Assembly: GCF_037392515.1 (NCBI RefSeq)
Contig: NC_090288.1
Location: 10,895,969 to 10,959,968 of the forward strand
Length of the DNA stretch: 64,000 nucleotides
From: Haliotis asinina
Lineage: Eukaryota; Mollusca; Gastropoda; Lepetellida; Haliotidae
Direction: 5' to 3'
Positions within the stretch are counted from its first letter, which is position 1. Each line of letters starts with the position of its first letter. The notes below the pieces were generated by a model. It saw only the letters and a program-made list of their open reading frames with translations, searched no databases and was not told the origin of the DNA. Positions 31,401-60,800 of the stretch are shown piece after piece. The position numbers were made by a program, and so were the translations under genes.

Positions 31401-33073
31401 GTGATTCTGATTGTCGTAAGAGGAGATTAACGGGATCGGGTGGCCAGACTCGCTGACTTGGATGACACATGTCATTGGTTCCCGGTTGCGCAGATCGATG
31501 CTCACTGGATCACTGGATTTGCTGGTCCAGACTCTATTATCTACAGGGATATTATTTAGGTGGAATATTGCAGAGTGCAGGGTAAAACTAAACTCACTCA
31601 CTCTTTTAGATGTTTCGCAAGGAGTGTCACCTGCGTATCGTTACGGGTGAGTTGACCTTGATATCGTGATATGGTACATTACTATTCTCATGCACATCTC
31701 ATTCTTATCTCTTTTCCGTTATTAGCTCAAGTAAAATGAAACAACCCTGCATCAATGTCGCCGGAAAGTGTATAATCAAACATCCTCTCGATGTCAGAAA
31801 GCGTATCCGATTGTTTACAAGAAGTCAGTACTATTGTGAATGTCTTATCGCTAATCTATTATACCACACGACTCACACAGAGGCCTGCTGTCTGGGAAGT
31901 ACACAAGAGACTCTCCACCGACAAGTGGGCGCCTGGGTTGGGTGAGAGAAGATGAGAAACGAGCAAGTCAGGCCATGCCAGACTGGAGCGCCCTGGAAGG
32001 GAATGATCAGATTTGGAACATCATTGATGCACTGCAGGACATCGCCAAGTCACATGGTAAGTAGAGCTGTAAGAGCGAATGCTGCTTGTGACGTAACAGT
32101 ACGGAATTTGACAGACAATATGGAGACCATTGTAGACACTGAGAGGAATCCGGTAAATGCTGTGACAAACTGAACAGGTATTAGTCCAAAACACAGACGA
32201 TAAAACCTTGTTGAGAAGACCAAGATTGAAATATGTGATAAGATTACACATATGACATTGTATGGCGTTTTTTCCTTAAGGTAAATCCATGGCCCAGGTG
32301 TCACTACGCTGGCTACTACAAAAGGATGTGGTTCCATCAGTGATCATCGGAGCTACATCCCTGGAACAGCTGGATGACAACTTGGGTGCAAGTAGTGGTT
32401 GGGCGCTGTCATCAGAGGAGGTGAGTTTGTGACTGACAGAGACTGGATGATATCTCAAGAGGAGGTAAGTCTGGCACAGCTGTTGAACAACATAGGTACA
32501 CCTAGATACTGGATGATATCTCCAGAGGTGGTAGGTCTGGCACAGCTGTTGAACAACATAAGTGTTGCTGGAGACTGGACGATATTTTCAGAGGAAGCAA
32601 ATCTGGCAAAGACGTTGGATAACATAGGTCCTAGAGACTGGACGATGTCATCAGAGAAGGTCAATCCATGTTAGATGACTGACAACGACCTGTTGTTTTT
32701 GAGTGGGTACAACCATCAGAGGAGGCGAGTCTTTGACATATATGACTGACTACGAGTGTTGTTTGTGGCCGTATGCTGTCTTCAGATGCCGATGTGACAG
32801 AAAGATTACAGCAAGGAAGCTACTCAGGTTATTTCCCTGGGCCCTATGACGTGATCGTAATTTTACCACTACATAAGGCATCAGGCAATATCAAATCACA
32901 AGATGATTTTTGTTTGTCATACAAATTATCAAGTTCACCATGCTTTTCAGATGGCACGACTGGACGAAGTGTCTCAACCCAGAATACCGTATCCATATGA
33001 AATGATTTGGAGACTCAACAGGTCTCGGCGCAATCCCTACCAGTCATCATACTTCGTCTCCAACTCAGACTGA
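28481..33073 (+). CDS. AKR gene B: NADPH-dependent aldo/keto reductase, 8 exons
   Basis: Exons 28481-28588, 29332-29474, 30174-30315, 30498-30671, 30817-30914, 31881-32056, 32281-32420 and 32951-33073 give an unbroken 367-aa frame; lengths are identical to A, D and E. Starts [20 protein letters not shown]. Catalytic tetrad Asp64, Tyr69, Lys95 and His133 is present, as is the barrel-core run [17 protein letters not shown] and the cofactor segment [15 protein letters not shown] at 301-315. The C-terminal exon encodes [20 protein letters not shown] and ends SNSD. A cytosolic reductase by family; the substrate is unknown. B is the most compact copy (4.6 kb): exon 3's donor has one extra 35-bp unit and exon 7's donor only a few decayed 66-bp units. 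Introns 2, 3 and 7 are close to those of E (inverted). Poly(A) candidate at 33376-33381. Confidence 0.92.
30316..30350 (+). repeat. Single extra copy of the exon 3 donor unit (gene B)
   Basis: After the real donor at 30316 there are 20 nt of intron and then the last 15 nt of exon 3 again with one change (GTGGACCTGTACCAG), followed by a non-donor (ACCTCT). It is the minimal state of the array that is expanded in C, D and E. Confidence 0.8.
31027..31165 (+). mobile_element. tRNA-derived SINE (gene B intron 5)
   Basis: Head GGTAGCCCGGTGGTTCACTC, B-box-like GGTCCGATTCCC, then the shared body (TCCGGTGTTCACTCCAGTGA) and a short CAACTCACTC tail. Confidence 0.6.
31352..31605 (+). mobile_element. Second SINE-like repeat, near full length (gene B intron 5)
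   Basis: Head GTGGTAGAATAGGCCCCTAG, then CATGCTTGCCATAAAAGG, GATTAACGGGATCGGGTGG, GACACATGTCATTGGTTCCC, and the AAACTAAACTCACTCACTC tail. Confidence 0.7.
32421..32700 (+). repeat. Decayed 66-bp exon 7 donor units (gene B intron 7)
   Basis: About four diverged units follow the exon 7 donor, recognisable by GAGGAGGTAAGTCTGGCACA, CAGCTGTTGAACAACATAG and GACTGGATGATATC. Only some keep a GT donor. Pairwise similarity looks far lower than in the arrays of A and D. Confidence 0.75.
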
Positions 33074-35429: not shown

Positions 35430-35501
<72 letters not shown>

Positions 35502-35505
35502 TTTG
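35429..35505. repeat. TTTA microsatellite
   Basis: About 19 TTTA units, responsible for a poly-(LFIY) open frame that is not a gene. Confidence 0.95.
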
Positions 35506-35696
35506 ATGCACGCCACCCTTTTATGAAAGGAGTCCTAGTCCAAATATGAAATAGCCACGTTGTACTATACCATGCTATGTTGGGGTTACCTCCCTTTGAA
35601 CGCCGTTGTTCTCGATATGAACACGAGACAATTTAATCCTCTGTCGTCGTTATTACTTGCCGATAACAAAGACAAAGATGACAGCTGGTGGGGAGG

Positions 35697-35720
35697 GTGT
35701 GTGTGTGTGTGTGTGTGTTA
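35697..35720. repeat. GT microsatellite replacing exon 1 of copy C
   Basis: A run of GT dinucleotides lies where exon 1 of the intact copies would end. Confidence 0.85.
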
Positions 35721-36645: not shown

Positions 36646-36692
36646 TGGAGTGAGTGAGTGAGTGAGTGAGTGAGTGAGTGAGTGAGTGAGTT
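36646..36692. repeat. GAGT tetranucleotide repeat
   Basis: About eleven GAGT units in intron 2 of copy C. Shorter runs sit at the same place in B (about 29612-29640) and, reversed, longer in E (about 58606-58638). Confidence 0.85.
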
Positions 36693-37055
36693 TGAATATT
36701 GTTCCAGTTACGTCAGGTAGCGCCCTTTTTGATGTAAGAGAAATCATCAAGATGGCGATGGTGCTGGTTCAACGGACGATCAGCAGTAGCTGCAGTTGTA
36801 GACGTGTAGAGCCAATACAAACGAATACCCAGTTTTGACTATCCACAGGAACAGATTCACTTTGAAGTAAAGGGCAAAATAGCTGTAAAACTAATAGTCA
36901 GTGAATGGACAGGTGTTCGTTCGTTAACACGTTTAGCGCGTCCTGCCCAGAATGTAGTAGAATTTCCCTAAAGATGTACCCACAATTTGCAGAATGTCCG
37001 TGTAGACTTACGGGCAATTTGCAGAATTTCCCTAAAGATGTACCCGCAGTCCGAA

Positions 37056-39545
37056 TCTGTAGCAAGTGAGAACTGAATGTAGTGTGATATCTGTCCCAAG
37101 TGAGTACTGACAGTAGTGTGTGGATCTGTAGCAAGTGAGTAATGACTGTAGTGTGTGGATCTGTAGCAAGTGAGTAATGACAGAAGTGTGTATCCGTAGC
37201 AAGTGAGTAATGATGTGGTGTGTGGACCTGTAGCATGTGAGTACTGACCGTAGTGTGTGGATCTGTAGCAAGTGAATAATGATGTGGTGTGTGGACCTGT
37301 AGCAAGTGAGTAATGACTGTAGTATGTGGATCTGTAGCGAGTGAGTAATGACTGAAGTGTGTGGATCTGTAGCAAGTGAGTAATGATGTGGTGTGTGGAC
37401 CTGTAGCAAGTGAGTAATGACCGTAGTGTGTGGATCTGTAGCAAGTGAGTACTGATTGTGGTGTGTGGATCTGTAGCAGGTGAGTAATGACCGTAGTGTG
37501 TGGATCTGTAGCAAGTGAGTACTGATTGTGGTGTGTGGATCTGTAGCAAGTGAGTAATGACAGTAGTGTGTGGACCTGTAGCAAGTGAGTAATGATGTGG
37601 TGTGTGAACCTGTAGCAAGTGAGTAATGACCGTAGTGTGTGGATCTGTAGCAAGTGAGTAATGACTGTGGTGTGTGGATCTGTAGCAAGTGAGTAATGAC
37701 TGTGGTGTGTGGATCTGTAGCATGTGAGTACTGACCGTAGTGTGTGGATCTGTAGCAAGTGAGTAATGATGTGGTGTGTGGACCTGTAGCAAGTGAGTAA
37801 TGACTGTAGTATGTGGATCTGTAGCGAGTGAGTAATGACTGTAGTGTGTGGACCTGTAGCAAGTGAGTAATGATGTGGTGTGTGGACCTGTAGCAAGTGA
37901 GTAATGACCGTAGTGTGTGGATCTGTAGCAAGTGAGTACTGATTGTGGTGTGTGGATCTGTAGCAGGTGAGTAATGACCGTAGTGTGTGGATCTGTAGCA
38001 AGTGAGTACTGATTGTGGTGTGTGGATCTGTAGCACGTGAGTAATGACAGTAGTGTGTGGACCTGTAGCAAGTGAGTAATGATGTGGTGTGTGGATCTGT
38101 AGCAAGTGAGTAATGACAGTAGTGTGTGGACCTGTAGCAAGTGAGTAATGACTGTGGTGTGTGGATCTGTAGCAGGTGAGTAATGACCGTAGTATGTGGA
38201 TCTGTAGCAAGTGAGTACTGATTGTGGTGTGTGGATCTGTAGCAAGTGAGTAATGACAGTAGTGTGTGGACCTGTAGCAAGTGAGTAATGATGTGGTGTG
38301 TGGACCTGTAGCAAGTGAGTAATGACAGTAGTGTGTGGACCTGTAGCAAGTGAGTAATGACTGTGGTGTGTGGATCTGTAGCAAGTGAGTAATGACAGTA
38401 GTGTGTGGACCTGTAGCAAGTGAGTAATGATGTGGTGTGTGAACCTGTAGCAAGTGAGTAATGACCGTAGTGTGTGGATCTGTAGCAAGTGAGTAATGAC
38501 TGTAGTGTGTGGATCTGTAGCAAGTGAGTAATGACTGTGGTGTGTGGATCTGTAGCATGTGAGTACTGACCGTAGTGTGTGGATCTGTAGCAAGTGAGTA
38601 ATGATGTGGTGTGTGGACCTGTAGCAAGTGAGTAATGACTGTAGTATGTGGATCTGTAGCGAGTGAGTAATGACTGTAGTGTGTGGACCTGTAGCAAGTG
38701 AGTAATGATGTGGTGTGTGGACCTGTAGCAAGTGAGTAATGACCGTAGTGTGTGGATCTGTAGCAAGTGAGTACTGATTGTGGTGTGTGGATCTGTAGCA
38801 GGTGAGTAATGACCGTAGTGTGTGGATCTGTAGCAAGTGAGTACTGATTGTGGTGTGTGGATCTGTAGCACGTGAGTAATGACAGTAGTGTGTGGACCTG
38901 TAGCAAGTGAGTAATGATGTGGTGTGTGGATCTGTAGCAAGTGAGTAATGACAGTAGTGTGTGGACCTGTAGCAAGTGAGTAATGACTGTGGTGTGTGGA
39001 TCTGTAGCAGGTGAGTAATGACCGTAGTATGTGGATCTGTAGCAAGTGAGTACTGATTGTGGTGTGTGGATCTGTAGCAAGTGAGTAATGACAGTAGTGT
39101 GTGGACCTGTAGCAAGTGAGTAATGATGTGGTGTGTGGACCTGTAGCAAGTGAGTAATGACAGTAGTGTGTGGACCTGTAGCAAGTGAGTAATGACTGTG
39201 GTGTGTGGATCTGTAGCAAGTGAGTAATGACAGTAGTGTGTGGACCTGTAGCAAGTGAGTACTGATGTGGTGTGTGGATCTGTAGCAAGTGAGTAATGAC
39301 TGTGGTGTGTGGATCTGTAGCAGGTGAGTAATGACCGTAGTGTGTGGATCTGTAGCAAGTGAGTACTGATTGTGGTGTGTGGATCTGTAGCAAGTGAGTA
39401 ATGACAGTAGTGTGTGGACCTGTAGCAAGTGAGTAATGATGTGGTGTGTGGACCTGTAGCAAGTGAGTAATGACAGTAGTGTGTGGATCTGTAGCAGGTG
39501 AGTAATGACCGTAGTGTGTGGATCTGTAGTAAGTGAGTACAGACT
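37056..39545 (+). repeat. 35-bp minisatellite seeded by an exon 3 donor (copy C)
   Basis: About 71 units of the form GTGGATCTGTAGCAA + GTGAGTAATGACTGTAGTGT; a common 34-bp variant carries GATGTGG. Compared with the exon 3 end of intact copies (CTGTACCAG|GTGAGT), nearly all units here read CTGTAGCAA|GTGAGT, so the variant spread through the whole array. A higher-order period of 835 bp is visible: the rare phrase GTGTGTGAACC at about 37601 recurs at 38436, and GTAGCATGTGAG at 37716 recurs at 38551. Long open frames on the minus strand with a 35-residue period are artefacts of three 35-bp units. Confidence 0.93.
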
Positions 39546-40789
39546 GTTGATTGTGAGTCTGCATTAGGTATACCAAGACCTGTTACATCAAACGGTTTGA
39601 TGTGTATCTAGTATCTAGCTGGCAATAAGATGTTGAAAACGTGCTGACACTGTGTTGTCTGCCTCTTCTGGAATCTTTGATATGTTTCTTTGGTAATAAA
39701 TAAAGATTGATGAATATGTCGCCTGAAATTTGGTTCCAGATGCAATTCTGGGATGATGGCACTGGGATTGAAGAAACACTCTGCACCTTTGATGACCTCG
39801 CTCGATGTGGGAAGGTGCGCTACGTCGGTGCCAGCAACGTTGTGGACTGGTAGCTACAGAAGATAGACTGTACATCGGAGAGGCTTTGCCTGAACCCGTA
39901 TGTTAGCTTACAGGTAGGACACTGATCATGATCACTTTCGTCACCATGGACGTAACTAAGGAAAAAGAAATTGTATGCAAATAGCAACAGATAAGTCGTG
40001 AAGCGAACTGACCGATAGCGCGTAACGCTCGAGCCTGCTAGGGGACATGTCCCCAAGAGAAAACTTTGAACTGAAAACGATCTGAAATACGTTTTCCTGC
40101 ATTAGAGAAGTAAGTTAGCGATATGCTTTAGGGCATTTCTGTAGATAATTTAAGATGTCCTGGGTGCCTTTCCTGACATTTTATTTGACTGACACATACT
40201 GAGACATAGTATTTTCAAACCTCTCTCGGCGCTAAGATAGTCGTTGGTCCCATACATTAACACTTACGATTGTCGTAGTGTTATGATTGCTCCGAAAATC
40301 TAGGGTGAGTTCTTTAAATGTTAAAGTAAATATTACCCGGATTTTCATGGTCATGACATTGATGATCTGTAATATCATAAACATCCACGTTCAGAGATAT
40401 CATCCACAAAATGTGACTTACGTTTTTTTTCTATCATGATGAACGTGTCTTCTTTAAGTATGTCCGGAAACCCGTTTATCCACCCATACAGTTCACACTG
40501 AGATCCCGGACAAATGGATGTCCAGATTACAGAGTATATGACTAAATCAAACTAAGATGTTTCCTTTGTACATGTCCGAATGGTGAGGTGTCCAGGCCGG
40601 CAAGGCTGCAGTGTTTAGTCCTCTTAGAAGCTCTGACGGTCATCCCTGGGTGCTTGTGGCGCTGAACCTCCTTTACGGAAGATATGAGGTGCTATCCTCC
40701 AGTAAATTTGTTGCCAAATGCGGCCTGTTAAAAGTAAACAAAGCACGATAATACTGAGTTACATCATGCTAGGTAGGGTTAACTGCTTT

Positions 40790-40862: not shown

Positions 40863-43800
40863 ATGGCAGCTGTACCAGCGGAGAGTAGACTGTCCTACAA
40901 CTTCCTGGGGAGGTCTGGACTGAAGGTGGCCAACATTGGCCTTGGCACGTTGACGTTTGGGGAGTCAGCGGTAAGTGGGTAGGGGAAGTTGAAAGTTTGA
41001 CCTCTACGCTGATTGTCTACATGTGTTGCGTAATCTCTCGCCACTGTGCACAGTTTCTGGAGCAATGCGTCACTATGCTTTTGGGCTGAGTTGCAATGGG
41101 TATCGGCGTTCGAAATAATCGCCTGCCCGGAGATCCAGCGCCGGTTGTTATTTCATTGGGCTGGCAGTTTCAAATATCTGTAGGCCCTTGTTGCCTTCGG
41201 TTTCCCTTGTTTTGTACCCTTTGTTAACGTTGGGGATATCACCCATGATCTGTCATGTTACTTTAACTAAGTTTAACTTCTTGGTATTTCAGAGCTTTAC
41301 TCATAGGAATGTCCACACCAGTCTTCAACAAATAAACACGTCTCTCTGCGCCATAGGGTTCGCTAATTGATTTTATAGAAACAGCACGATGCTGTGACCG
41401 GTGTAGCTTATTTCGTTTGTTTGTTTTTTATGTTTTTTGTTGTTGGGTTGACTGTAACACGATGGGCCCGCAGGTTTCATTCAGGGCCTGTAGATTTTAA
41501 AACCTGCAGGCGGCCGCAGGCCCTGATGGCCAACTGGCAAATTAAAGTATTGCAAACACTGATGGGTACACCTATTTATACAAACATATACGCATTTTCA
41601 TACCTATAGGCTACTTTACAAGTATAACCACAGCATGTATAGTTTTGAACGTTGCACTATATTTACACCGTGCACGATAACTTTTATCAATGCAAGCACA
41701 GTGACAGTGCGCGTGCGTGCGAGCATTATTATTTCTTATTTCCAAGTTCAAAGCATTTGAGTCCATTGGATCAGTTTAATGCTGATGATATGACAACGTC
41801 TTTTGTCAACATAAACTCGTTTACAAAATATACACTTCACCTTTTGAGATTTACTCGATTTCGGACCGGAACTGTTTTCTATAACGAATCCCCGAGTGAT
41901 TCAGTTCTCGGAGAATCATTGGGAGAATGTGTATTGACCGGAATATTTGGATTGCATTGGGAATCCAGAAAAAAAAGTAAAAAATGTCATCTATAATGAC
42001 ATATTTGATGTGTAGATGATATGATAGATGTATATTCGACATAGATGACAACATCATGACCGTAGACGTAACGTATCATGAACGTAGACGTAAAGTATCA
42101 TGAACGTAGACGTAACGTATCATGAACGTAGACGTAAAGTATCATGAACGTAGACGTAACGTATCATGAACGTAGACGTAACGTATCATGAACGTAGACG
42201 TAACGTATCATGAACGTAGACGTAAAGTATCATGAACGTAGACGTAACGTATCATGAACGTAGACGTAAAGTATCATGAACGTAGACGTAACGTATCATG
42301 AACGTAGACGTAAAGTATCATGAACGTAGACGTAACGTATCATGAACGTAGACGTAAAGTATCATGAACGTAGACGTAACGTATCATGACCGTAGACGTA
42401 ACGTATCATGAACGTAGACGTAAAGTATCATGAACGTAGACGTAAAGTATCATGAACGTAGACGTAACGTATCATGAACGTAGACGTAAAGTATCATGAA
42501 CGTAGACGTAACGTATCATGAACGTAGACGTAAAGTATCATGAACGTAGACGTAACGTATCATGAACGTAGACGTAAAGTATCATGAACGTAGACGTAAC
42601 GTATCATGAACGTAGACGTAAAGTATCATGAACGTAGACGTAACGTATCATGAACGTAGACGTAACATATCATGAACGTAGACGTAACATATCATGAACG
42701 TAGACGTAACGTATCACGAACGTAGACGTAACATATCACGAACGTAAACGTAACATATCACGAACGTAGACGTAAAGTATCATGAACGTAGACGTAACGT
42801 ATCACGAACGTAGACGTAACATATCATGAACGTAGACGTAACGTATCATGAACGTAGGCGTAACATATAATGAGATGAAAGTATCACGACCGTAGACATG
42901 ACGTATGATAAACGTAGAAGTAACGTATCAGCGACGTAGAAGTAACGTATCATGACCGTAGACGTAACATATCATGAACGTAGACATAATGTATCATGAG
43001 CATAGAGGTAACGTATCATGAACGTAGATGAAAGTATCATGAACGTAGAAGAAAGGCTCGTCCAAGAAGAAAATTGTATCATTTTCATAGATGATATAGT
43101 AAACTATATTTTTATACAAATGATTCCTGTTCCACACTGAAAATAGCTGAAACAACAATCCAACTGAAATCCACAATGGTTTAGCAAGTCTTAGGTGCCT
43201 CAGCTCTGATAAACACGGACTGTTCTGAACCAGCATTTCGATGTCACCTTCAAATTTGTAACTAAACGCTTGCTACAATCAATCAGCGATGCTGACACTG
43301 GGATAAGGTTCCCAACACAACACATGTTCGGTCACAAACTGGACAGTTTCCTGGAATTGTTCAGAATCAACGGAAACACAAAGGAAGCGTGTTTGTTTGC
43401 ATTGCTGAGTCAAATGACTTTTCTTTGCATTACAGAACAAACGACCTGGCCAAGCCACAGAGGAGTTCTCCCACCAGGTGCTTGACCGCTACGTCCAGTG
43501 GGGAGGCAACTTCATCGATACTGCCGATATCTACTCGCAAGGACAATCTGAGAAGTTCATTGGATCGTGGCTAGCGAAGTATGTTATATTGGACCAGACG
43601 GATTAGCAGTGTGAGAACGTAGGTAGACCAGTGGTTACTGGCGAAGTAATACGTCTTTGAAGTACCAGGATCTGCTGATTCCGTGTTTACACACCAGAGT
43701 TACTGCACAAAAATAGAAACCAGAGTGTGTGGGTGAGTCTGTAAGTGAATCCAATTCATGGTATTAATGTGTTTAGTGCTGAGAACTTTTAGAAAATGCC

Positions 43801-46800
43801 AACAAACTTTCATAGAGCAATCGAGATAACATAGATAGCAAACATGGTCAAAATTTGAATACAAACATTATCACGTCAGAAACCAGCACCAAGAAGCATG
43901 GATCAATTTTTTACCGCAATTTGACGTATTAATGTGAAAATCATTTATATTACCTCCGGATTGTTTTGATAGTGTGAGAGACAGTCTCGCATTCTGGTCC
44001 CAGACTCGGTTTGGTGGCGGATTTGGTAAAACGAGTGCAGGAGGGCCTGTACGTCTCGCGAGGCGCTACTTCTGATACGAGGCCGGATCCCGTTTCCCTT
44101 TGCGCACTCCAAGTTGCGACATCCAAGACGGGCCCAGCGTCCTTCCGGTACCATGTTTCTGGTGACAAGTGCATATTCAAGAGCAAGTTCTGGTTCCAAA
44201 TTGCATGACCGCCAAATATAACTTTACTAGACCGAATCAAGTGTACAACTTGCTTGGCTGTCACAGCTGTTGACAATCGTAACAGCTGGCTGATTTGGGG
44301 AGGGTTAGATCGGAAATTTGTTATGCCTGCAAGGATCTTGGGTCGCCTACTGAAAACCGACAAACATGAGACCATTCGAAAAGGTACTATACGTTGTGTC
44401 TCACCGGAAGTACTAAAGTCTCGCGAAGTAACATGACCTACTTACGGGTCCTATTGTTGCACAGCATCCTGTTTTGGTACATGCATCTTTAGAATGACGA
44501 CAGAAACACCATGGACGGTCTAGCTTGATATTTGCTACCTATTATTGAGAACTGTAAGCAATAAATATGATATGCCAGGTCGGCACAACGCAAAAGTTCG
44601 ACGTCTTTCTGTGAAGAAAAATATTTGAAGTTATCGATATTTGAAGGATCGACATTTATACTTCCTTGAATTTTTTTTAAAGACAGTCACGTGAGCAGTT
44701 CGTTATAGCAACAAAGGTGAGAGTAACGACTCCGATTGGGGTCGGACTCAGTCGTCGCCATATTGTCAACAGTATCCAGCGAAGTCTTGAGAGGCTTCAG
44801 ACGGACTATGTGGATCTGTACCAGGTGAGTACTGACTGTAGTGCGTGGATCTGTTCCAGGTGAGTAGTAATTGTATTGCGTGGATCTGTACCAGATGACT
44901 ACTGAGTGTAGTGCGTGGATCTGTACCTGGTGACTACTGAGTGTAGTGCGTGGATCTGTACCAGGTGACTGCTGATTGTATTGCGTGGATCTGTACCAGG
45001 TGACTACTGAGTGTAGTGCGTGGATCTGTACCAGGTGACTACTGAGTGTAGTGCGTGGATCTGTACCTGGTGACTGCTGATTGTAGTGCGTGGATCTGTA
45101 CCTGGTGACTACTGAGTGTAGTGCGTGGATCTGTACCTGGTGACTACTGAGTGTAGTGCGTGGATCTGTACCAGGTGACTGCTGATTGTAGTGCGTGGAT
45201 CTGTACCTGGTGACTACTGAGTGTAGTGCTTGGATCTGTACCAGGTGAGTGCTGATTGTAGTGCGTCGATCTGTACCAGGTGACTACTGAGTGTCGTGCG
45301 TGGATCTGTACCAGGTGAGTGCTGATTGTAGTGCGTGGATCTGTACCAGGTGACTACTGAGTGTAGTGCGTGGATCTGTACCAGGTGAGTGCTGATTGTA
45401 GTGCTTGGATCTGTACCAGGTGAGTGCTGATTGTAGTGCGTCGATCTGTACCAGGTGAGTGCTGATTGAAGTGCGTGGATCTGTACCAGGTGAGTGCTGA
45501 GTGTAGTGCGTGGATCTGTACCAGGTGAGTGCTGATTGTAGTGCTTGGATCTGTACCAGGTGACTACTGAGTGTAGTGCGTGGATCTGTACATGGTGACT
45601 ACTGACTGTAGTGCGTGGATCTGCACCAGGTGAGTGCTGATTGTAGTGCGTGGATCTGTACCAGGTGACTACTGAGTGTAGTGCGTGGATCTGTACCAGG
45701 TGAGTGCTGATTGTAGTGCTTGGATCTGTACCTGGTGACTACTGAGTGTAGTGCGTGGATCTGTACCTGGTGACTACTGACTGTAGTGCGTGGATCTGCA
45801 CCAGGTGAGTGCTGATTGTAGTGCGTGGATCTGTACCAGGTGAGTACTGAGTGTAGTGCGTCGATCTGTACCAGGTGACTACTGAGTGTAGTGCATGGAT
45901 CTGTACCAGGTGAGTGCTGATTGTAGTGCGTGGATCTGTACCAGGTGAGTGCTGATTGTAGTGCGTGGATCTGTACCAGGTGAGTGCTGATTGTAGTGCG
46001 TGGATCTGTACCAGGTGACTACTGAGTGTAGTGCGTGGATCTGTACCAGGTGAGTGCTGATTGTAGTGCGTCGATCTGTACCAGGTGAGTGCTGATTGAA
46101 GTGCGTGGATCTGTACCAGGTGAGTGCTGAGTGTAGTGCGTGGATCTGTACCAGGTGAGTGCTGATTGTAGTGCTTGGATCTGTACCAGGTGACTACTGA
46201 GTGTAGTGCGTGGATCTGTACATGGTGACAACTGACTGTAGTGCGTGGATCTGCACCAGGTGAGTGCTGATTGTAGTGCGTGGATCTGTACCAGGTGACT
46301 ACTGAGTGTAGTGCGTGGATCTGTACCAGGTGAGTGCTGATTGTAGTGCGTGGATCTGTACCAGGTGAGTGCTGATTGTAGTGTGTGGATCTGTACCAGG
46401 TGAGTGCTGATTGTAGTGCGTGGATCTGTACCAGGTGAGTGCTGATTGTAGTGCGTGGATCTGTACCTGGTGACTACTGAGTGTAGTGCGTGGATCTGTA
46501 CCAGGTGAGTGCTGATTGTAGTGCGTGGATCTGTACCAGGTGAGTGCTGATTGTAGTGCGTGGATCTGTACCTGGTGACTACTGAGTGTAGTGTGTGGAT
46601 CTGTACCAGGTGAGTGCTGATTGTAGTGCGTGGATCTGTACCAGGTGAGTGCTGATTGTAGTGCGTGGATCTGTACCAGGTGAGTGCTGATTGTAGTGCG
46701 TGAATCTGTACCAGGTGAGTGCTGATTGTAGTGCGTGGATCTGTACCTGGTGACTACTGAGTGTAGTGCGTGGATCTGTACCAGGTGAGTGCTGATTGTA

Positions 46801-49800
46801 GTGCGTGGATCTGTACCTGGTGACTACTGAGTGTAGTGCGTGGATCTGTACCAGGTGAGTGCTGATTGTAGTGCGTGGATCTGTACCAGGTGAGTACTGA
46901 CTCTAGTGCGTGGATCTGTACCAGGTGAGTGCTGACTGTAGTGCGTGGATCTGTACCAGGTGAGTGCTGATTGTAGTGCGTGGATCTGTACCAGGTGACT
47001 ACTGAGTGTAGTGCGTGGATCTGTACCAGGTGAGTGCTGATTGTAGTGCGTGGATCTGTACCAGGTGAGTGCTGATTGTAGTGCGTGGATCTGTACCAGG
47101 TGACTGCTGATTGTAGTGCGTGGATCTGTACCAGGTGAGTGCTGATTGTAGTGCGTGGATCTGTACCAGGTGAGTGCTGATTGTAGTGCGTCGATCTGTA
47201 CCAGGTGACTACTGAGTGTAGTGCGTAGATCTGTACCAGGTGAGTGCTGATTGTAGTGCGTGGATCTGTACCAGGTGAGTACTGACTCTAGTGCGTGGAT
47301 CTGTACCAGGTGAGTACTGACTCTAGAGCGTGGATCTGTACCGGGTGAATAGAAATTGTAGTGCGTGGATCTGTACCAGGTGACTACTGACTGTAGTGCG
47401 TGGATCTGTACCAGGTGACTGCTGATTGTAGTGCGTGGATCTGTACCAGGTGACTACTGAGTGTAGTGCGTGGATCTGTACATGGTGACTACTGAGTGTA
47501 GTGCGTGGATCTGTACCAGGTGAGTACTGACTGTAGTGCGTGGATCTGTACCAGGTGAGTACTGAGTGTAGTGCGTGGATCTGTACCAGGTGAGTGCTGA
47601 TTGTAGTGCGTGGATCTGTACCAGGTGACTACTGAGTGTAGTGTGTGGATCTGTACCAGGTGAGTACTGACTGTAGTGCGTGGATCTGTACCAGGTGAGT
47701 ACTGCCTGTAGTGCGTGGATCTGTACCAGGTGAGTGCTTACTGTAGTGCGTGGATCTGTACCGGGTGAGTGCTGATTGTAGTGCGTGGATCTGTACCAGG
47801 TGAGTACTGACTGTAGTGCGTGGATCTGTACCTGGTGACTGCTGATTGTAGTGCGTGGATCTGTACCAGGTGAGTACTGAGTGTAGTGCGTGGATCTGTA
47901 CCAGGTGAGTACTGACTGTAGTGCGTGGATCTGTACCAGGTGAGTACTGATTGTAGTGCGTGGATCTGTACCAGGTGAGTACTGACTGTAGTGCGTGGAT
48001 CTGTACCAGGTGAGTACTGATTGTAGTGCGTGGATCTGTACCAGGTGAGTGCTGATTGTAGTGCGTGGATCTGTACCACGTGAGTACTGACTGTAGTGCG
48101 TGGATCTGTACCAGGTGAGTTCTGACTGTAGTGCGTAGATCTGTACCAGGTGAATACTGACTGCAGTGTAGGATCTGTTCCAGGTCACTACTGCCTGTAG
48201 TGTGTGGATCTGTATGAAGAAAGTACTGACTGTAGTGTTTGGACTTGGAGTGTATCCAGTCGGTATGAGCTGTTGTCAATGATATAGAATCAACTCTAGC
48301 AAAGCCTCAGTCCATACTTAAACAAGTGATATGATAGCATCGTTCCATCTCTGATTGGCTGTAAACCTCACTGAAGCAGTTGAACATCTTCCTATTGTAG
48401 TTACACATTTGGGATGATGGCACTCCTATTGAAGAAACACTCCGTGCATTTGATGACCTAGTTCGATGTGGGAAGGTGCGCTACGTCGGTGCCAGCAACG
48501 TGACGGGTTGGCAGCTACAGAAGATAGTCTGTACATCAGAGAAGTTGGGCCTGAACCCCCTTGTCAGCTTACAGGTAAGATCAGATATTGTAGCATGAAA
48601 CGTGGATTGTGACTATGTGTCTTAGCCCACCCAGATGTCAATGGGTACCTCGTGTTGAGAATCAAACCCGTATCTTCAGCGTGACGAGTGAACGCTTTAA
48701 GCATTCGGCTTCCTCACCTTCCCTGAAGTGAAAGAATGGTATAACCATGATGTTTGAAATACAACTAAGTTGTTTTGCTTTCTGTTCTGCAATTCACAGG
48801 TCTAAGAAGGAATGATCCAGTTATACTATAATTATAACCGCTCCAAATTTCAAGACTGGGGGACACTAACCAGTAGTTTATGTAGTAAACAATGATTCAC
48901 AACTTTTGGGTAATGTTTAAGGAGCAGGTACTGAGTGTATGGTAAAGCATTGTATTCACAGCGTTTGAATTATTGTGGATTGGCATATTTATAAGACCTC
49001 AATGTATATTGTTCAGCAACAGTACAGCCTGGTATGTCGTGAGACGGAGTTCGAACCCCTCCAGGTTTGCAAGACGGAAGGAATAGGGGTGCTGCCTTGG
49101 AGCCCTCTCAAGGGGTGAGTTGGGTGTATAAATGGTGCATTGCGTCATCAATCAAATTCTAGGGAAATATCAATGGACAATTTGGCATGAATGAATTAAG
49201 TGGCGATCACTTAACAGTTTTGTGGTGGAGTTTACAGTTCTGTAGTGATGTCCTGGAGATCCCTCAACAATTCTACAGTGATGCCCTGGAGATCCCTCAA
49301 CAGTTCTGTAGTGATGTACTAAAGACCTCGACACGATTTAGTAGTAATGTAAGGGTTGTTAGTCAATACTTCATTAATAGTTTATAAGGATCACTCAGCG
49401 ATTTAGTAACGGTGTCTTGGAGATCTTGCAAACATGGAACAGTTGTTTAGTGGATACCTCGCTTGGTGTGAGTTGACCTGGGTATCACTAAATGGTATAC
49501 CAGTATTCTCGTTGATGTCTTTGCGTGCCAGACCACGAAACATGGAGTAACTCTCTACAGTAAATGTGTCGTTAAATGAAGACCAACAGAGACATCCTCA
49601 CAGAGACAGTGACTATATGAAGGCGTGTTAGTGGTAACGTTGTTGCTCAAATGATTTACGCAGAGGCCTGCTTTCTGGGAAGTACATACGAGACACTCCC
49701 CCAACAAGTGGGCGCCTGGGTTGGGCGAGAGGAGATGTGAAACGAACAAATGAATCCTCTCCAGACTGGAGCTCCATAGAAGGGAATGATCAGATTTGGA

Positions 49801-52800
49801 ACATCATCGACACAGTGCTGGACATCGCAAAGGCACGAGGTACGCACAGCACCTAATAACACCAGATGAATATTATGAATCTGTGATAGACAATCTCAGA
49901 AACTTAGAAGAAGTTACCAATATCCCGGTAGACCGTACAAAAAAACGGAAATACATTGTGACAAACCTGGAAGATGCTATATGAAATACTATTTAGACAC
50001 AACTTGAAACATACGTTTTGTCCACAGACAAATCTGTGGCCCAGGTGTCTCTCCGCTGGCTGCTACAGAAGGACATTGTCCCATCAGTCATCATTGGAGC
50101 CACGACTCTGAAACAGCTTGATGACAACCTGGGAGCTGCAAGTGGCTGGACACTGTCTTCGGAGGAGGTGAGTCTGGAACAGATGGATGACAACTTGGGA
50201 ACTGTTAGAGGCTGGACACTCACTTCTGAGGAGGTAAGTCTGGAACAGATGGATGACAACCTGGGACATGCAAGTGGCTGGGCACTGCCTTCAGAGGTGG
50301 TGTGTCTGGAACAGATGGATGATAACGTGGAAACTGCTTGTGGCTGGAAACTGTCTTCAGAGGAGGTAAGTCTGGAACAGCTGGATGACAACCTGAGAGC
50401 TGCTAGTGGCTGGACACTGTCTTCAGAGGAGGTGTGTCTGGAACAGCTGGATGACAACCTGGGAGGTGCTAGTGGCTGGACACTGTCTTCACAGGAGGTG
50501 TGTCTGGAACAGCTGGATGATAACCTGAGAGCTGCTAGTGGCTGGACACTGTCTTCCGAGGAGGTGTGTCTGGAACAGCTGGATGACAACCTGGGAGGTG
50601 CTAGTGGCTGGACACTGTCTTCAGAGGAGGTGTGTCTGGAACGGATGGATGATAACCGGGAAACTGCTAGTGGCTGGACACTGTCTTCACAGGAGGTGTG
50701 TCTGGAACAGCTGGATGACAACCTGGGAGGTGCTAGTGACTGGACACTGTCTTCAGAGGAGGTAAGTCTGGGACAGCTGGATGACAACCTGGGAGCTGCA
50801 AGTGGCTGGACACTGTCTTCAGAGGAGGTAAGTCTGGAACAGCTGGATGACAACCTGAGAGCTGCGAGTGACTGGACACTGTCTTCAGAGGAGGTGTGTC
50901 TGGAACAGCTGGATGACAACCTGAGAGCTGCGAGTGACTGGACACTGTCTTCAGAGGAGGTAAGTCTGGGACAGCTGGATGACAACCTGGGAGCTGCAAG
51001 TAGTTGGACACTGTCTTGCGAGGAGGTAAGTCTGGAACAGCTGGATGACAACCTGAGAGCTGCAAGTGGCTGGACACTGTCTTCAGAGGTGGTGAGTCTG
51101 TAACAGCTGGAAGACAACCTGGGAGCTGCTAGTGGCTGGACACTGTCTTCAGAGGAGGTGAGTCTGGGACAGCTGGAAGACAACCTGGGAGCTGCTAGTG
51201 GCTGGACACTGTCTTCAGAGGAGGTGAGTCTGTAACAGCTGGATGACAACCTGGGAGCTGCAAGTGGCTGGACACTGTCTTCAGAGGAGGTGAGTCTGTA
51301 ACAGCTGGATGACAACCTGAGAGCTGCAAGTGGCTGGGCACTGTCTTCAGAGGTGGTGAGTCTGTAACAGCTGGAAGACAACCTGAGAGCTGCTAGTGGC
51401 TGGACACTGTCTTCAGAGGAGGTGAGTCTGTAACAGCTGGAAGACAACCTGGGAGCTGCAAGTGACTGGACACTGTCTTCAGAGGAGGTGAGTCTGTAAC
51501 AGCTGGAAGACAACCTGGGAGCTGCAAGTGGCTGGGCACTGCCTTCAGAGGTGGTGAGTCTGTAACAGCTGGAAGACAACCTGGGAGCTGCTAGTGGCTG
51601 GACACTGTCTTCAGAGGAGGTGAGTCTGTAACAGCTGGATGACAACCTGGGAGCTGCAAGTGACTGGACACTGTCTTCAGAGGAGGTGAGTCTGTAACAG
51701 CTGGAAGACAACCTGGGAGCTGCTAGTGGCTGGGCACTGCCTTCAGAGGTGGTGTGTCTGGAACAGATGGATGACAACCAGGAAACTGCTAGTGGCTGGA
51801 CACTGTCTTCAGAGGAGGTAAGTCTGGGACAGCTGGATGACAACCTGGGAGCTGCTAGTGGCTGGACACTGTCTTCACAGGAGGTGAGTCTGGGACAGCT
51901 GGATGACAACCTGGGAGCTGCTAGTGGCTGGACACTGTCTTCAGAGGAGGTGAGTCTGTAACAGCTGGAAGACAACCTGGGAGCTGCAAGTGGCTGGGCA
52001 CTGCCTTCAGAGGTGGTGTGTCTGGAACAGATGGATGACAACCAGGAAACTGCTAGTGGCTGGACACTGTCTTCAGAGGAGGTAAGTCTGGGACAGCTGG
52101 ATGATAACCTGAGAGCTGCAAGTGGCTGGACACTGTCTTCAGAGGAGGTGTGTCTGGAACAGCCTGGATGACAACCTGAGAGCTGCTAGAGGCCGGACAC
52201 TCATTTCAGAGGCGGTAAGTCTGGAACAGATGGATAACAATCTGGACACATTTCTTGTGACTTGCCCCTACCTTCAGAGAAGGTGTGTCTGTAACAGCTG
52301 AGCGACAATTGGGTATTGCTAATAACTGGACACTGTCTTCTAAATAATAAATGGATAGCATCGGAGCTCTTTGAGACTAGACACTGGTCTGTAGGGAGGT
52401 GAAAGCTGAGTGGCAGTCTGGTGCTGCAAACTATAGTGACTGGACAGTCTTCTAAAGATGCGAATCTGGTATAGCATGGTGACGCCGAAGTGGACATTAT
52501 TTTTATTGGGATTGAAGAATGGAAAGCTGGGCGCTGCTCATATCTTAATGAAAATCAGGGTCTCATTGTGATGCGCTCCTCCTTCTGCATGTCAAAGCGT
52601 GCATTACCTTGATGAAATCGGAGACGACGATAAAATACAAAAGAACATCTGGTGAATCATGTGAAGATAAGAATGCACAGACTTACGCTGAATTATGGCA
52701 TTAACTTGTGTCGCCGGTACGTCACATGATAAATTCAAATCGTTCGGGTTTTTTCTATCATGCAGTTTCTCAAGATGACTCTGTTTTTCAGATGGCTCGA

Positions 52801-52914
52801 CTGGACGAAGTGTCGCAACCCGGAGTACCGTATCCATATGAAATTATTTGGAGACTCAACAGGTCTCGGCGCAATCCCTACCAGTCATCGTACCTCGTCT
52901 CCAACTCAGACTGA
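40863..52914 (+). CDS. AKR gene D: NADPH-dependent aldo/keto reductase, 8 exons
   Basis: Exons 40863-40970, 43436-43578, 44683-44824, 48401-48574, 49017-49114, 49664-49839, 50028-50167 and 52792-52914, coding for 367 aa with all phases consistent. Starts [20 protein letters not shown]. Catalytic Asp64 and Tyr69 (FIDTADIY), Lys95 (ATKVRV) and His133 (QLHIWDDG) are present. Exon 4 begins with Leu where other copies have Met. Exon 6 is the most diverged ([10 protein letters not shown]). The cofactor segment is [15 protein letters not shown] soluble AKR reductase by family, substrate unknown. Three introns are inflated by arrays: 22-bp in intron 1, 35-bp exon 3 donor units in intron 3, 66-bp exon 7 donor units in intron 7. 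The frame stays open from exon 7 to 51103. Intron 5 is nearly the reverse complement of gene A's. Poly(A) candidate at 53811-53816, beyond a SINE in the 3' UTR. Confidence 0.92.
42055..43060. repeat. 22-bp CpG-dense minisatellite in gene D intron 1
   Basis: About 45 units of 22 bp containing CATGAACGTAGACGTAACGT. Much of the array alternates between AACGTAT and AAAGTAT forms, giving a 44-bp dimer. Each unit has two or three CpG sites, which stands out in AT-rich intron sequence. Units are degenerate after about 42850. Confidence 0.92.
43960..44440. other. Unexplained GC-rich block in gene D intron 2
   Basis: About 480 bp of higher GC content within AT-rich intron. A 141-codon frame is open on the minus strand (44375-43950) but resembles no protein I recognise. 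It may be an insertion; no terminal repeats were made out. Confidence 0.35.
44825..48190 (+). repeat. 35-bp minisatellite seeded by the exon 3 splice donor (gene D)
   Basis: About 96 units begin exactly at the donor of exon 3 (44824|44825). The unit is GTGAGTGCTGATTGTAGTGC + GTGGATCTGTACCAG: 20 nt of intron and the last 15 nt of the exon. Period 35 is exact over long stretches (lines 420 bp apart are in register). Many units keep CAG|GTGAGT; others have CAG|GTGACT or CTG|GTGACT. In the exon's frame a TGA is met at the start of the second unit, so the array is not coding. The flanking exons (3 at 44683-44824, 4 at 48401) are intact. Confidence 0.95.
48628..48715 (-). mobile_element. tRNA-derived SINE fragment, reversed (gene D intron 4)
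   Basis: Reversed B-box region TTGAGAATCAAACCCGTATC and A-box region GAACGCTTTAAGCATTCGGC. Confidence 0.5.
50168..52210 (+). repeat. 66-bp minisatellite seeded by the exon 7 splice donor (gene D)
   Basis: About 31 units adjoin exon 7 exactly at its donor (50167|50168). A unit is GTGAGTCTGG plus the last ~56 nt of exon 7 (ACAGCTGGATGACAACCTGG through ACACTGTCTTCAGAGGAG). The exon 7 frame stays open for about 14 units, until TAA in a GTCTGTAACAG variant at 51101-51103; that variant is frequent in the right half. Donors at unit ends are mostly GTGAGT or GTAAGT, with some GTGTGT. CTGG is present at both edges of the seed (CTGAA/CTGGAACAG in the exon, GTGAGTCTGG in the intron), fitting a microhomology-mediated first duplication. 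Confidence 0.95.
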
Positions 52915-54344: not shown

Positions 54345-54575
54345 TGTGTTTAGTGAGGGTTGGTTTGGTCTTGTTTGGTATTTTATCGCGGCACTCAGCA
54401 TTACATATGACAGCGGTCTGTAAATAATCGAATCTGGACCAGAAATCCACTGATCAACAGCATGAGCATCGATCGACGCAACTGGGATACAGTGACATTT
54501 GTCAACCAAGTCAGCGGATCTAACCACCCATCCCATTAGTCGCCTCTTAACACAAGCATAAGTTTCTGAAGACCA
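54345..54575 (-). mobile_element. Second SINE-like repeat family, reversed
   Basis: On the minus strand it carries GACTAATGGGATGGGTGG, ACAAATGTCACTGTATCCCA, GATGCTCATGCTGTTGATCA and the ACAGACCGCTGTCATATG segment, in the same order as at 14228. Confidence 0.6.
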
Positions 54576-54839: not shown

Positions 54840-57800
54840 TCAGTGTGAGTTGGAGACGAGGTACGATAACTGGTAGGGATTGCGCCGAGACTTGTTGTGT
54901 CTCCAAATCATTTCATATGGATACGGTACTCTGGGTTGAGACACTTCGTCCAGTCGTGCCATCTGAAAAGCATAGTGAACTTGATAATTTGTATGACAAA
55001 CAGAAATCATCTTGTGATTTGATATTGCCTGATGCCTTGTGTAGTGGCAAAATTACGATGAAGTCATAGGACCCTGGGAAATAACCTGAGTAGTTTCCAT
55101 GTTGTAATCTTCCAGTCGTGCCATCTGAAAAGCATGGTTAGGCTAATCATTTGCACAACAGACACGTGAACATATGGTGTTTGATTGACTCATCATGTAC
55201 TAGCAACACTTTGTAAACGTCGTCTTTACATATAAGGGCTATTAATATTAGTTGCCTCTGTTTCGGCCACAGAGTCACCCATTGTGGACACAGCGTCTGG
55301 CGTCACACAACGGCTGGTTGTCAGTCACCTCTCGTAGGCTCACCTCATCTGCAGACAGCGCCCATCCACTATCACGGACTGCTCTAAACGCATCGTCCAG
55401 CCACGAGCAGCTTACGGCCTTTCATCCATCTATCACAGACGTCCCTCCTCAGAAGATTTTGTCCAGCCTGTAGCAGCACCTACGTCGTCCAAAAGCTGTG
55501 CCAGACGTTCCTCCTCTGAAGATATCGCACAGTATCTAGCAGCACCAAAGTGTCCAAAGTTGTGCCAGACTGAACTCAACCCTTAGACACAGCCTTACAA
55601 ACTCACCTCCTCCGATGACAGCGCCCAACCATACCTTGTGGTCATCCATCTGTCTTTTCCTCAGGAGGAAATGTCCACTCACTAGCAGTGTCTAGATTAC
55701 CATCCATATATCACAGACTCACCTCCTCTGAAGACAGTGTCCAGCCACTAGCAGCTCCCAAGTTGTCATCCAGCTGTTCCAGGGATGTGGCTCCGATGAT
55801 TACTGATGGAACAACATCCTTTTGTAGCAGCCAGCGTAGTGACACCTGGGCCATGGACTTCCCTGGTGGAGAAAACGCCATACAGTTTCATACTTTCATC
55901 TTGCTTACCAAACAACTTAACACAAGGTATTATCCTCAGTAGTTACTGGAATTGTTACAATATCTGTTACGTCCGTCACAAGATCTACAGGGTTCATCAC
56001 AGAGTCTACGATGATTTCCATATTGTCTGTCAGATTTCTTACAGAGATGTGTAGTTGTAGTTGTGTGTAAGAAGCATTCGCTCTTAAAACTCTACCTACC
56101 ATGTGTCGTAGCGATGTCCCGCAGTGCATCAATGATGTTCCAGATCTGATTATTCCCTTCCAGAGCGCTCCAGCCTGGCATGGGCTGACCTGCTCGTTTC
56201 TCATCTTCTCTCACCCAACCCAGGCGCCCACTTGTCGGTGGAGAGTCTCTTGTGTACTTCCCAGACAGCAGGCCTCTGTTTAAGTCATCTGTTATGTTTG
56301 ATTACCCATTCTGATCTGCACTAACTGACCTTCTGTTAAGGAATCACACATCTTCACAATATAGCTTATAACCCTCTGACATCGAGAGGATGTTTGATTA
56401 TGCATTTACTGAAGACCTTGATGCAGAGTTACTTCAATCAGGGAAAAGACATTAAACATTCACGTTAATACTAATGCACCATATAGAGATATCCAGGATA
56501 TCTCACCCGTACCGATATCCAGGACATATCACCGGCAAATTTCAAAGACCTCAAGGACACTATTACTTAACTGTGGAGGAATCGTCGAGGCAGTGTATTG
56601 TTCAACGGCCATCTGGACGCCACTGATGTATCTCTGCGTCACCATTACAGAAATACCTAGAACATTTATTCCTCTGTAGCCCAAAGTCCTCCACGCTATT
56701 ATCAGACCTTCAAGTGTGAGTGAATTACCAAACTGAGTTAGTGGGTAGGGTTTTACGATGCTTTTTTCAATATTCAAGCCATACCTCAGCAGGGGACATA
56801 GGGTGTTTAGCTTCACAGATTGTACCCATGTACAGAAACTAACCTGGCTTGACAAGTGAACATCTGGGCTAAAACCGCCCCAAACCTTTCAAATATTAAC
56901 ACCCCATTGAAGGTTCTGCAAGACACCTCTACTGACTGTTGAGGGGTCACCGAGACATCATCACTAAACTGTCACTTGTGTAATGTTCGATAAATATGCT
57001 GCCTGACTATTTGCTTCTTAAATCAGTACACCAATTACAACTCACCCCTTGAGAGGGCTCCAAGGTAGCACACCTAATCCCTCGGTCTTGCACACTTGTA
57101 GGGGTTCGAACTCCGTCTCCCGACACGCCAGGCTATACTGTTGCTGAAAACAATAATGAGTAGCAATATTCGGGTTAAAGTGTAAAATAATAGGTTCATA
57201 TCATCCAGCGTGATGAAGTCCATGTTATAACATCGTTATAATGGCGTTTTTCCAGTTATGTGTTCTAAGAGTGATTGAACCGTTCTTGTCACAATGTCCT
57301 CCCGCAATTTAAAGAATGTTATAATGTTATAATGTTTTACCTGTAAGCTGATACAGGGGTTCAGGCCAAGCTTCTCCGATGTACAGACTATCTTCTGTAG
57401 CTGCCAGCCCACCACGTTGCTGGCACCGATGTAGCGCACCTTCCCACATCGAACCAGGTCATCAAATGCGCGTAGTGTTTCTTCAATAGGAGTACCATCA
57501 TCCCAAAGGTGCATCTGGAAGATGTGACATGATTCCAGCGCACTTAGGAATTGTGTCATTGCCTCGCTATCGTGGGTTTGGATTGGAGAAAAGCGTGAGG
57601 TAAACCTGGTTCCACTTCAGGCAGTACACCTATGTTATTCTGGAAGAGAGCAGTCTTGAGGATCTAACCTGGTACAGGTCCACACACTACAGTCAGTACT
57701 CACCTGGTACAGGTCCACACACTACAGTCAGTACTCACCTGGTACAGGTCCACACACTACAGTCAGTACTCACCTGGTACAGATCCGCACACTACAGTCA

Positions 57801-60800
57801 GTAGTCACCTGGTACAGATCCACACACTACAGTCAGTACTCACCTGGTACAGGTCCACACACTACAGTCAGTACTCACCTGGTACAGATCCACACACTAC
57901 AGTCAGTACTCACCTGGTACAGATCCACACACTACAGTCAGTACTCACCTGGTACAGATCCACGTAGTCCGTCTGAAGCCTCTCAAGACTCCTCTCGATA
58001 CTGTTGACAATATGGCGACGACTGAGTCCGACACCAACCGCCGAGTTACCTCTGACCTTAGTGGCTACAACGAACTGCTCACGTGACTGTCTGCATTACA
58101 AAAGATGAAATACATTAAGCTCTGGGACCAAAAATACAAAGAAAGAGTGATCATAGACTCATCTATTTCCAAAACGTTTTTCTTTTACACATTCCAAATA
58201 TATCTCGGAACGACTGCATGTTAGTCGTAATCCCAATTTAACAACTGGACTTTCTCATTCATCAATCACTTGTTTGTCTGGTTTGTATACAAGTTTTTCC
58301 AGAGCAGAAATAATGCTGTGTGGTATCGGCCTACTAATACTTGCAAATTCTGCAGATTGCGGGTACAACCTACTGGGCAGGACATGCTTACCATGGTAAC
58401 GAACACCTGTCCATTCATACGAGTTTGACAGCCTTTTTGCACCTTGCTACAAATTAAATCTATTTCTGTTGATAATCAAAAATGCGTATACGTTTGTATT
58501 GACTCTGTATATTTAAAACTGAAGCTACCAGTCACCTTATTGAGGACTTTCTCTTACATCAAAATAGTGCTACCTGATACAACTGGAGCATTTATCAAAT
58601 AGACTCTCTCTCACTCACTCACTCACTCACTCACTCCTGTATTCAGTACAACAGCCTTCGTCAGATCCAGCAGATTCTAGAAGTTCAAATGTACACGTAT
58701 TCACTGCACACGCTATTCCATTTGCGGTTGGTTTACCCCTGTGCCTCGCACTGCTCATCGATTATAACATACTTTGACAGCCAGGATCCAATGAACTTCT
58801 CGGACAGTCCTTGCGAATAGACATCAGCGGTGTCGAGGAAGTTGCCTCCCCACTGGACGTAGCGGTCAAGCACCTGGTGGGAGTACTCCTCTGTGGCCTG
58901 ACCGGGTCGCTTGACCTGTAAGATGAAACAGTCTTGAGACTACAAAATGTAGGTTGTTTTTTTTTTAAATCGAGAGTTGTTCTATCAATTATTTGTTTAT
59001 TTTGTGTCGAAACAGATTTTATCGTTACCTCGATTATGTTTTTTTTTCGTAATATGCATTATGTTCTTGTCTGTTCAAATACATTTTTAAAATTTGGATA
59101 TTCTTGAAAATAGTGGAAGTAAGGATTCAAAGTCGGGAAAGAAGTGAAATAACGAGAACATAATCGAAGTAAAGATTAGATAGTTTTAGGAACGAAAAGA
59201 AATTCGGATCGTTTTGAAATAACGTTTAAAAAATCGCCGAAACCAAGATATCTTTATTTTATTTTTATCAAAGACTTGAACGGCAACATGATCGAAGTAG
59301 GAAATATTTGGAGCGATAAGAAAACAGAGTATATTATCTAATATATCGAAACATTCCATCTTTCAAATTTAAATTTATGCCGGTTCAATTCCACCTCTAA
59401 TCTTTCATACGTTTGAACAAGAACAAGTTGGAAAGTGCAATATAGGACGCACTTTATGGAGAACTTCTTTTATTCGTGAGAGATACAGATTCTTGTAACG
59501 TTGTCACATATAAATGGAACACGAAGAAAACAACATAATTAACTTAACTGGCAAGACATTTTGAGCTGGTTGAGACCAAACCTTCGCTGATGAGGCCAGT
59601 GATGTACAATTATAAGTGAGATGTTTATACAGGAGACTTTATGCAGTAGATTGGGCTTGGTGAAGGACTGAATAATGGGATGAAGTATCCTTGCTCTCGG
59701 CTGATGGTGGGTTGTTGGCGTTTGACGTTGATGGCTTCGGTGAGCCTCACTTTAGTCAAGTCTGTTGATTGTTAGCAAGAATGCTGATGTCAGACCAACG
59801 TGTTTCATGATTGGGGCTTGCTTTGATATGGTCAGAGATGGCTGATTTGCTGTCGGAACTAGTAACAGAGGACTGATGTTCTTTTACTGGGGTGTTGATG
59901 GGTCGGGGCGCTTCGCTTATATAGACTCTGTCCACAACCACAATTAGTTTTGTAGATGACATATTTCGGGTTGTTGTGTTTGACGGTGGATGGTTTTCTT
60001 CCATTAGCAGAGAGCATGTTGTCGACGCTGGAGGGCACGGAGGTGGTGTCGGTGCCTGCTTGTTTTCGGAGTCGTCTGATTTGATGTACCCGTTTACCAA
60101 TGTAGGTAAAAGATATCTTGTTGGTTGAACAGGCCCCGATTTCCCGAAACAAACTGATGTTTTTACTCAAATTTCAAACTGAGTCTGACAATTGGAAACA
60201 GCTGACATTTTATCCCAACTGCATTTTCAAAATATAAAAGCCCAAACAACTTAAGCAATACATTCACAAACCTCAAACTGTCTACTATTTTTGATTGAGT
60301 TTATTATCAATTTCAGTACATTCTGGGAAATGTATTTTCTCAAATTTGGGTAAAAACTTAAACTTAAGGGTCAAAACTCAGACTTACGTGTGTTTCGAGA
60401 AATCAGGACCAGGTGTTCTTGTCCTTTTCCATGACGTACTTCTGTCCCGTACCTACTGTGACCAACTCCAGACCACTGTATACAGAAAACCCACCTATCC
60501 GGATCAGTACATAAACTACAACTCCAACCATCCTCCGAAAGACATGACCGGCATCATTTACACATTCACCAGAAGGGCCAAGAGCATATGTTCAACTAAA
60601 CTATAGGATGAAATAGAACATCCGAAGAAAGTCTTTGTACATCTGAACCACCATCCGTCAAAACATAACCGCCTGATCCATCTATGATACCCTGTCATCT
60701 ACCAAAAGACCCAAACCAGATTCAGCTCCCATCAAGATATCTATTCTTTGTATTTATAAACCGTCAAATCAAATCAGCCGGCTCTTAAAACAAGCCGAAT

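Follow-up and report, generated by a model that had tools for sequence, protein, structure and literature searches.

The AKR Cluster and Its Repeats at Two Splice Donors

The 64-kb window, by which we mean the whole stretch of DNA analysed, contains several aldo-keto reductase (AKR) genes in a cluster, among them four complete copies of eight exons each (A, B, C, and D), placed via tblastn with the exons of gene B as queries and by their splice signals (Table 1). In each of the four, the coding sequence is open over 1101 nt and interrupted by seven GT-AG introns, and the first donor, the acceptor, and the open coding sequence are intact in all of them. The product of gene D carries a full-length domain, with Pfam Aldo_ket_red (PF00248) matching residues 25–334 over positions 2–290 of the 291 of the profile (E = 2.5e-77), and its top match to solved AKRs, among the best 60 of 188 distinct chains, is PDB 7utf (E = 1.7e-84). 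The eighth exon of this gene (start 52792) is directly preceded by tctgtttttcag. A further copy, E, is broken, as exon 3 and exons 5–8 are absent from its tblastn matches up to E 0.01.

Table 1. Positions of the AKR genes, of two exons of gene D, and of the repeats found at or near the exon 7 and exon 3 donors.
Feature	Position	Strand	Remarks
AKR gene A	26535 to 15363	minus	Complete, 8 exons
AKR gene B	28481 to 33070	plus	Complete, 8 exons
AKR gene C	61191 to 54843	minus	Complete, 8 exons
AKR gene D	40863..52911	plus	8 exons, starting at 40863, 43436, 44683, 48401, 49017, 49664, 50028, 52792
AKR copy E, broken	34398–39913		Pieces resembling exons 1 and 4, containing stops
Diverged AKR remnant	near 12.2–11.5 kb		
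Exon 7, gene D	50028..50167	plus	140 nt; its final 66 nt count as unit 0; from tblastn with paralog exons, splice signals, and alignment to 7utf/8hwn
Exon 8, gene D	52792..52911	plus	Last coding exon, acceptor intact
66-bp array, units 1–14, gene D	50168..51091	plus	Open in the exon 7 frame; from the unit table and ORF 49997–51103
66-bp array, units 15–31, gene D	51092..52214	plus	TAA at codon 4 in ten of units 15–30; unit 31 is 67 nt
66-bp array, paralog A	16196..18372	minus	33 units directly after exon 7; unit 2 (18306–18242) is 65 nt, frame broken
Diverged 65-bp relative of the 66-bp unit, paralog A	15713..16115	minus	Further 6.2 copies
Decayed 66-bp array remnant, paralog B	32421..32661	plus	After exon 7; TGA at codon 4 (32430–32432)
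Decayed 66-bp array remnant, paralog C	55436..55722	minus	After exon 7; TGA at codon 4
35-bp array, gene D	44825..48237	plus	After exon 3; about 98 copies (TRF)
35-bp single extra copy, paralog B	30316..30350	plus	At exon 3 donor
35-bp array, paralog C	57669..57948	minus	8 units at exon 3 donor
35-bp repeat, broken paralog E	37055..39547	plus	71.7 copies (TRF); exon 3 not found

Exon 7 of gene D ends in GAG/GTGAGT at 50167/50168, GAG being its last codon, and the donor base is also the first base of a 66-bp array. In this intron, Tandem Repeats Finder (TRF) gives a period of 66, with 32.4 copies and 89% matches (50107–52245). From the donor onward, 30 units measure exactly 66 nt (50168–52147); a 31st of 67 nt comes next, and then decayed copies. 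Each unit comprises homology to approximately the last 60 nt of exon 7 and approximately 6–9 nt of intron, and GT at positions +1/+2, G at +5, and T at +6 are kept in 30/30 units. The best copy of the junction in intron 7 matches it at 29 of 30 bases, versus 22 in the best of 200 shuffles, which is far beyond chance. The first stop of the array is the TAA at codon 4 of unit 15 (51101–51103), and stops are present in 10 of the 30 units. Because exon 7 ends in phase 0 and the phase of exon 8 matches, donors 0 to 14 would all splice in frame to exon 8. The descriptive part of an earlier note on this DNA thus stands: it had placed the junction and the start of the array at these bases, had described units of some 56 nt of exon plus some 10 nt of intron that re-create a donor, and had counted about 14 open units, any of whose donors would lead in frame to 52792.

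The 66-bp repeat or its remains are found at the exon 7 donor in 4/4 complete paralogs, with a wide spread of copy number between them, as assembled. In paralog A, only zero or one extra unit would be in frame because the second unit has 65 nt. The later units of A are mostly well preserved despite this frameshift, and a long homogeneous array can therefore exist without coding use. In B and C, each of which has only a few decayed copies, the fourth intron codon after exon 7 is TGA. Frame beyond one unit is kept in none of A, B, and C.

A second family of repeats lies at the end of exon 3 (CAG/GTGAGT), whose donor is spanned by a 35-bp unit. Extra copies of this unit are present in 3/4 complete paralogs, with none in A, 1 in B, 8 in C, and about 98 in D. 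As 35 is not a multiple of three, frame would be kept only at every third extra donor. Among the matched units of gene D, 56/88 have GTGAGT and 31/88 have GTGACT. In broken gene E, GTGAGT is found in 61/63 pattern-matched 35-bp units (TRF counts 71.7 copies, some units falling outside the pattern). Conservation of the donor was considered as a sign of function and rejected, given that it is kept to this extent in a broken gene where exon 3 was not found. Since E retains the motif, homogenisation alone can keep donor motifs, with no splicing function needed.

The 28 GT-AG-bounded introns of A–D were all scanned for further copies of their own junctions, a copy being counted when it beat all 200 dinucleotide shuffles. 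Donor-junction copies do so in 8/28 introns, namely intron 7 of each of the four genes, intron 3 of C and D, intron 4 of B, and intron 5 of D, the last by 19 versus 18 only. Acceptor-junction copies do so in 1/28 (intron 7 of C). The single extra copy in intron 3 of B, though plain by eye, merely equals the shuffles (18 versus 18) because its donor half is missing. In gene C, at 54946–55164 on the minus strand, a 57-nt copy (79%) of the acceptor and beginning of exon 8 lies at a distance of 162 bp from the original, an acceptor-side counterpart of the donor copies.

Other repeats are present in the window. Minisatellites of 33 bp (20403–21537), 42 bp (19206–19567), and 22 bp (42053–43049) lie in AKR introns of A and D, none of them starting at a donor. 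A dispersed element occurs on both strands in at least seven copies (9278–9370, 11051–11243, 14213–14447, 18713–18836, 31340–31605, 54440–54533, and 62193–62315), and may be akin to repeats of abalone, as could be expected in a mollusc; its copy near 31340 continues into GTAAAACTAAACTCACTCACTC. An exact-string literature search with the motif of this dispersed repeat gave no match, and a search of Rfam gave no match.

Coding Constraint and Donor Strength in the Gene D Array

The synonymous share of the variants that distinguish the units does not depart from expectation in any of the sets compared. In units 1–14 of gene D, 9/32 distinct variants are synonymous and 27.8% are expected to be (p = 1.0, 95% interval 0.14–0.47). 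The corresponding counts are 3/16 in units 15–30 (0.296 expected), 9/34 in all 30 units of D (0.271), and 8/17 in A (0.312); these counts omit stop-class variants (one per set, and two in the set of all D units) as well as the 65-nt unit of A. The highest share is thus that of paralog A, although it is out of frame after its second unit. With 32 variants, the data of the open units of gene D are compatible with weak constraint at the protein level. The openness of the 14 units was also considered as coding evidence and was rejected. Given a stop-free unit, all 14 units stay open in 22% of 20,000 trials in which 33 variants are relocated at random, and the antisense strand of the array is itself open over 730 codons (49993–52185).

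Donor strength was taken as the energy of pairing with the 5′ end of U1. By this measure, donor 0 of gene D has −10.8 kcal/mol, and donors 1 and 3 have −10.7 kcal/mol. Donor 1 (50234, GAG/GTAAGT) pairs with U1 as well as donor 0 does, and some use of it would therefore be likely. The downstream donors of gene D are not weaker as a class. Weak GTGTGT donors (−4.7 to −6.3 kcal/mol) make up 7/14 of the in-frame downstream donors versus 3/16 in the closed part of the array, and this excess in the open part is the opposite of what one would predict under selection for usable donors. Judging by its motifs, the donor set of gene D does not look like one kept for use, while still being compatible with the use of donor 1.

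Possible Exchange between Paralogs

Exon-by-exon comparisons were made on codon-trimmed exons for six pairs of paralogs. Between A and D, exon 7 (18373–18513 in A, 50027–50167 in D) differs at 9/141 positions and the other exons at 183/957 (p = 7e-5). The contrast goes in the opposite direction between B and D (31/141 in exon 7 versus 119/957 elsewhere, p = 0.004) and, weakly, between B and C (14/141 versus 47/957, p = 0.03), and the remaining three pairs show no difference between exon 7 and the other exons (p from 0.3 to 0.6). After correction for six tests, the A–D and B–D contrasts are still significant. The likeness of A and D ends near the border of intron 6 and does not reach far into that intron. 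A plausible account is that exon 7 would have been converted between these two inverted paralogs, with the long arrays providing the shared homology. Conversion from array to exon, confined to the tail of exon 7, was considered separately and is unsupported, as A–D identity is 0.924 in the last 66 nt and 0.947 in the first 75 nt. B and C, which are also in opposite orientation, are 99–100% identical in exons 2–4 and only 82% identical in exon 1, a pattern that suggests patchy conversion.

Known Systems and the Probable Origin of the AKR Arrays

Minisatellite-like tandem duplications across an exon-intron boundary are known from amphioxus as "mirages," for which Canestro et al. 2002 is reportedly the reference cited. 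In PMC3087553 and PMC3902484, mirages are described in Adh3, in the globins BflGb6 and BflGb9, and in troponin C, and repeats similar to them in PGBD5; they are unstable in length, many of their units have AG/GT signals, and regular splicing is reported to be undisturbed. The unit sizes reported there are 10–72 bp for Adh3 and 150–160 bp for the globins. Common to these and to the AKR arrays are tandem units across an exon-intron boundary, many of them bearing splice signals. As in a mirage, the AKR units span the splice junction, with the tail of exon 7 or exon 3 and the donor inside them, and the arrays abut the genuine junction: the 66-bp repeats of A and D and the 35-bp repeats of B, C, and D each have a first unit that starts at the donor base. 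Unlike the mirages so described, the AKR arrays form two families (35 and 66 bp) that appear repeatedly, at the same two donors, among the genes of one cluster of paralogs, they reach about 98 and 33 units, and one of them happens to be in frame and open over 14 units.

Human IFI6 (6-16) has a minisatellite whose repeat unit, of 12 nt, is far shorter than the 66-bp unit of the AKR genes. This minisatellite is said, after Turri et al. 1995, to provide multiple splice donors. According to PMC4526556, two downstream repeat units of IFI6 (6-16/G1P3) serve as donors, so that three mRNAs and different isoforms arise; the title of the 1995 minisatellite paper is among the references of PMC2572611. 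The two systems are alike, on this description, in having a tandem repeat at the donor of an exon, and they differ in that donor use is reported for IFI6 and would be putative for the array of gene D. Among human segmental duplications, PMC2812944 describes variable internal tandem repeats at exon-intron boundaries, with 27 intron modifications after manual inspection, units that average 30 bp and are repeated 4 times, and transcript evidence. Like the AKR arrays, these are minisatellites at exon-intron boundaries of recent paralogs, where intron structure was altered; unlike them, they consist of about 4 units of about 30 bp and come with transcript evidence (PMC2812944).

Because IFI6, the mirages, and the human boundary repeats are in print, the remark of the earlier note, which knew of no description of such a system, does not stand. 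The AKR arrays are a real instance of an already described phenomenon, donor-straddling intronic minisatellites, here in a paralog cluster. A literature search, whose scope extended to a minority of subscription papers, has no boundary-straddling array of mollusc or AKR genes among the matches listed, and no boundary-straddling case appears in the accessible part of a paper on an abalone intron minisatellite.

In all likelihood, the arrays are unstable minisatellites of introns that arose when sequence spanning a donor was duplicated in tandem, the gene D array being the intron 7 case, with the first donor mainly used. From the position, the units and the frame of the array, the comparison of paralogs, and the second array, we infer a mutational mechanism, a donor usage, and a lack of function. 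Short segments straddling the donors (66 bp at exon 7 and 35 bp at exon 3) would have been tandemly duplicated in ancestors of the AKR cluster. Such duplications would be tolerated, since the exon keeps its correct end at the first donor and the further copies leave with the intron. The copies would then have behaved as ordinary unstable minisatellites, growing and contracting, decaying, and becoming more alike through slippage, unequal exchange, and conversion. The 14 open units of gene D would be incidental, the unit being free of stops and its length by chance divisible by three. The donor at 50168 is most likely the main donor of gene D; splicing from it would join SSEE to MARL, which is gapless at the join against PDB 7utf and 8hwn.

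This explanation is compatible with a short ladder of isoforms as splicing noise, in which gene D would use, at low frequency, between one and three of the extra donors next to donor 0, adding 22 to 66 residues with no selected role. The donor sequences would allow minor isoforms that carry one 22-residue unit more, or a few: U1 pairing at donors 1 and 3 is as strong as at donor 0, and neither stop nor frameshift occurs in units 1–14. With an exon of normal size (here 140 nt), splicing usually prefers whichever donor is closest to the acceptor, which we count against such a ladder. IFI6, with two downstream repeat units used as donors (PMC4526556), is a precedent for it, and the amphioxus mirages, reported to splice regularly (PMC3087553, PMC3902484), speak against it. 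The short ladder is on balance less likely than not.

A functional protein ladder would be an unlikely outcome of an array with these features, and the proposal of the earlier note, in which the choice of donor adds anything from 0 to 14 units to a functional protein tuned by repeat number, is to be regarded as extremely improbable. The unit is divisible by three, the phases match on both sides, 14 units are open, and GT is kept in 30/30 units, all of which would suit the proposal. It finds no positive support, however, in the variation among units, where 9/32 variants are synonymous with no bias and the neutral probability of openness is 0.22, nor in the paralogs, where frame is lost in A, B, and C and the sister array has a unit of 35 bp, nor in the donors, of which 7/14 in-frame downstream ones are weak. 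An insertion at this point would, moreover, interrupt a stretch (LS-x-EEM-x-RL) that is unbroken in the two aligned solved relatives (7utf and 8hwn). A broader reading joins the two aspects of the locus: donor choice in gene D would give isoforms that grow by 22 residues at a time, each addition repeating part of the C-terminal region of the enzyme itself, and the array would in addition be a recombination hotspot carrying exon 7 between A and D. If true, it would mean that one intronic repeat tunes a protein and alters the exon encoding part of it as well; we hold it to be very improbable. There is as slight a chance that the length of the array or the order of its units is an assembly artefact. 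Tandem arrays are hard to assemble, and a mirage is aberrantly assembled in the amphioxus draft according to the globin paper, but donor-straddling repeats are present in A, B, C, D, and E. As these differ in unit variants and in copy numbers, the phenomenon does not depend on one locus.

In conclusion, as evidence for a new protein-tuning system, the gene D array is weak. As a set of donor-straddling minisatellites, the AKR cluster is a natural series for a little-studied phenomenon, with 0, 1, 8, and about 98 extra copies at the same donor in sister genes, and with a second donor, that of exon 7, at which a single gene has an array that keeps the frame through many units. The cluster would permit a clean test of the choice of the spliceosome among near-identical donors, and of the extent to which such arrays drive exon conversion.
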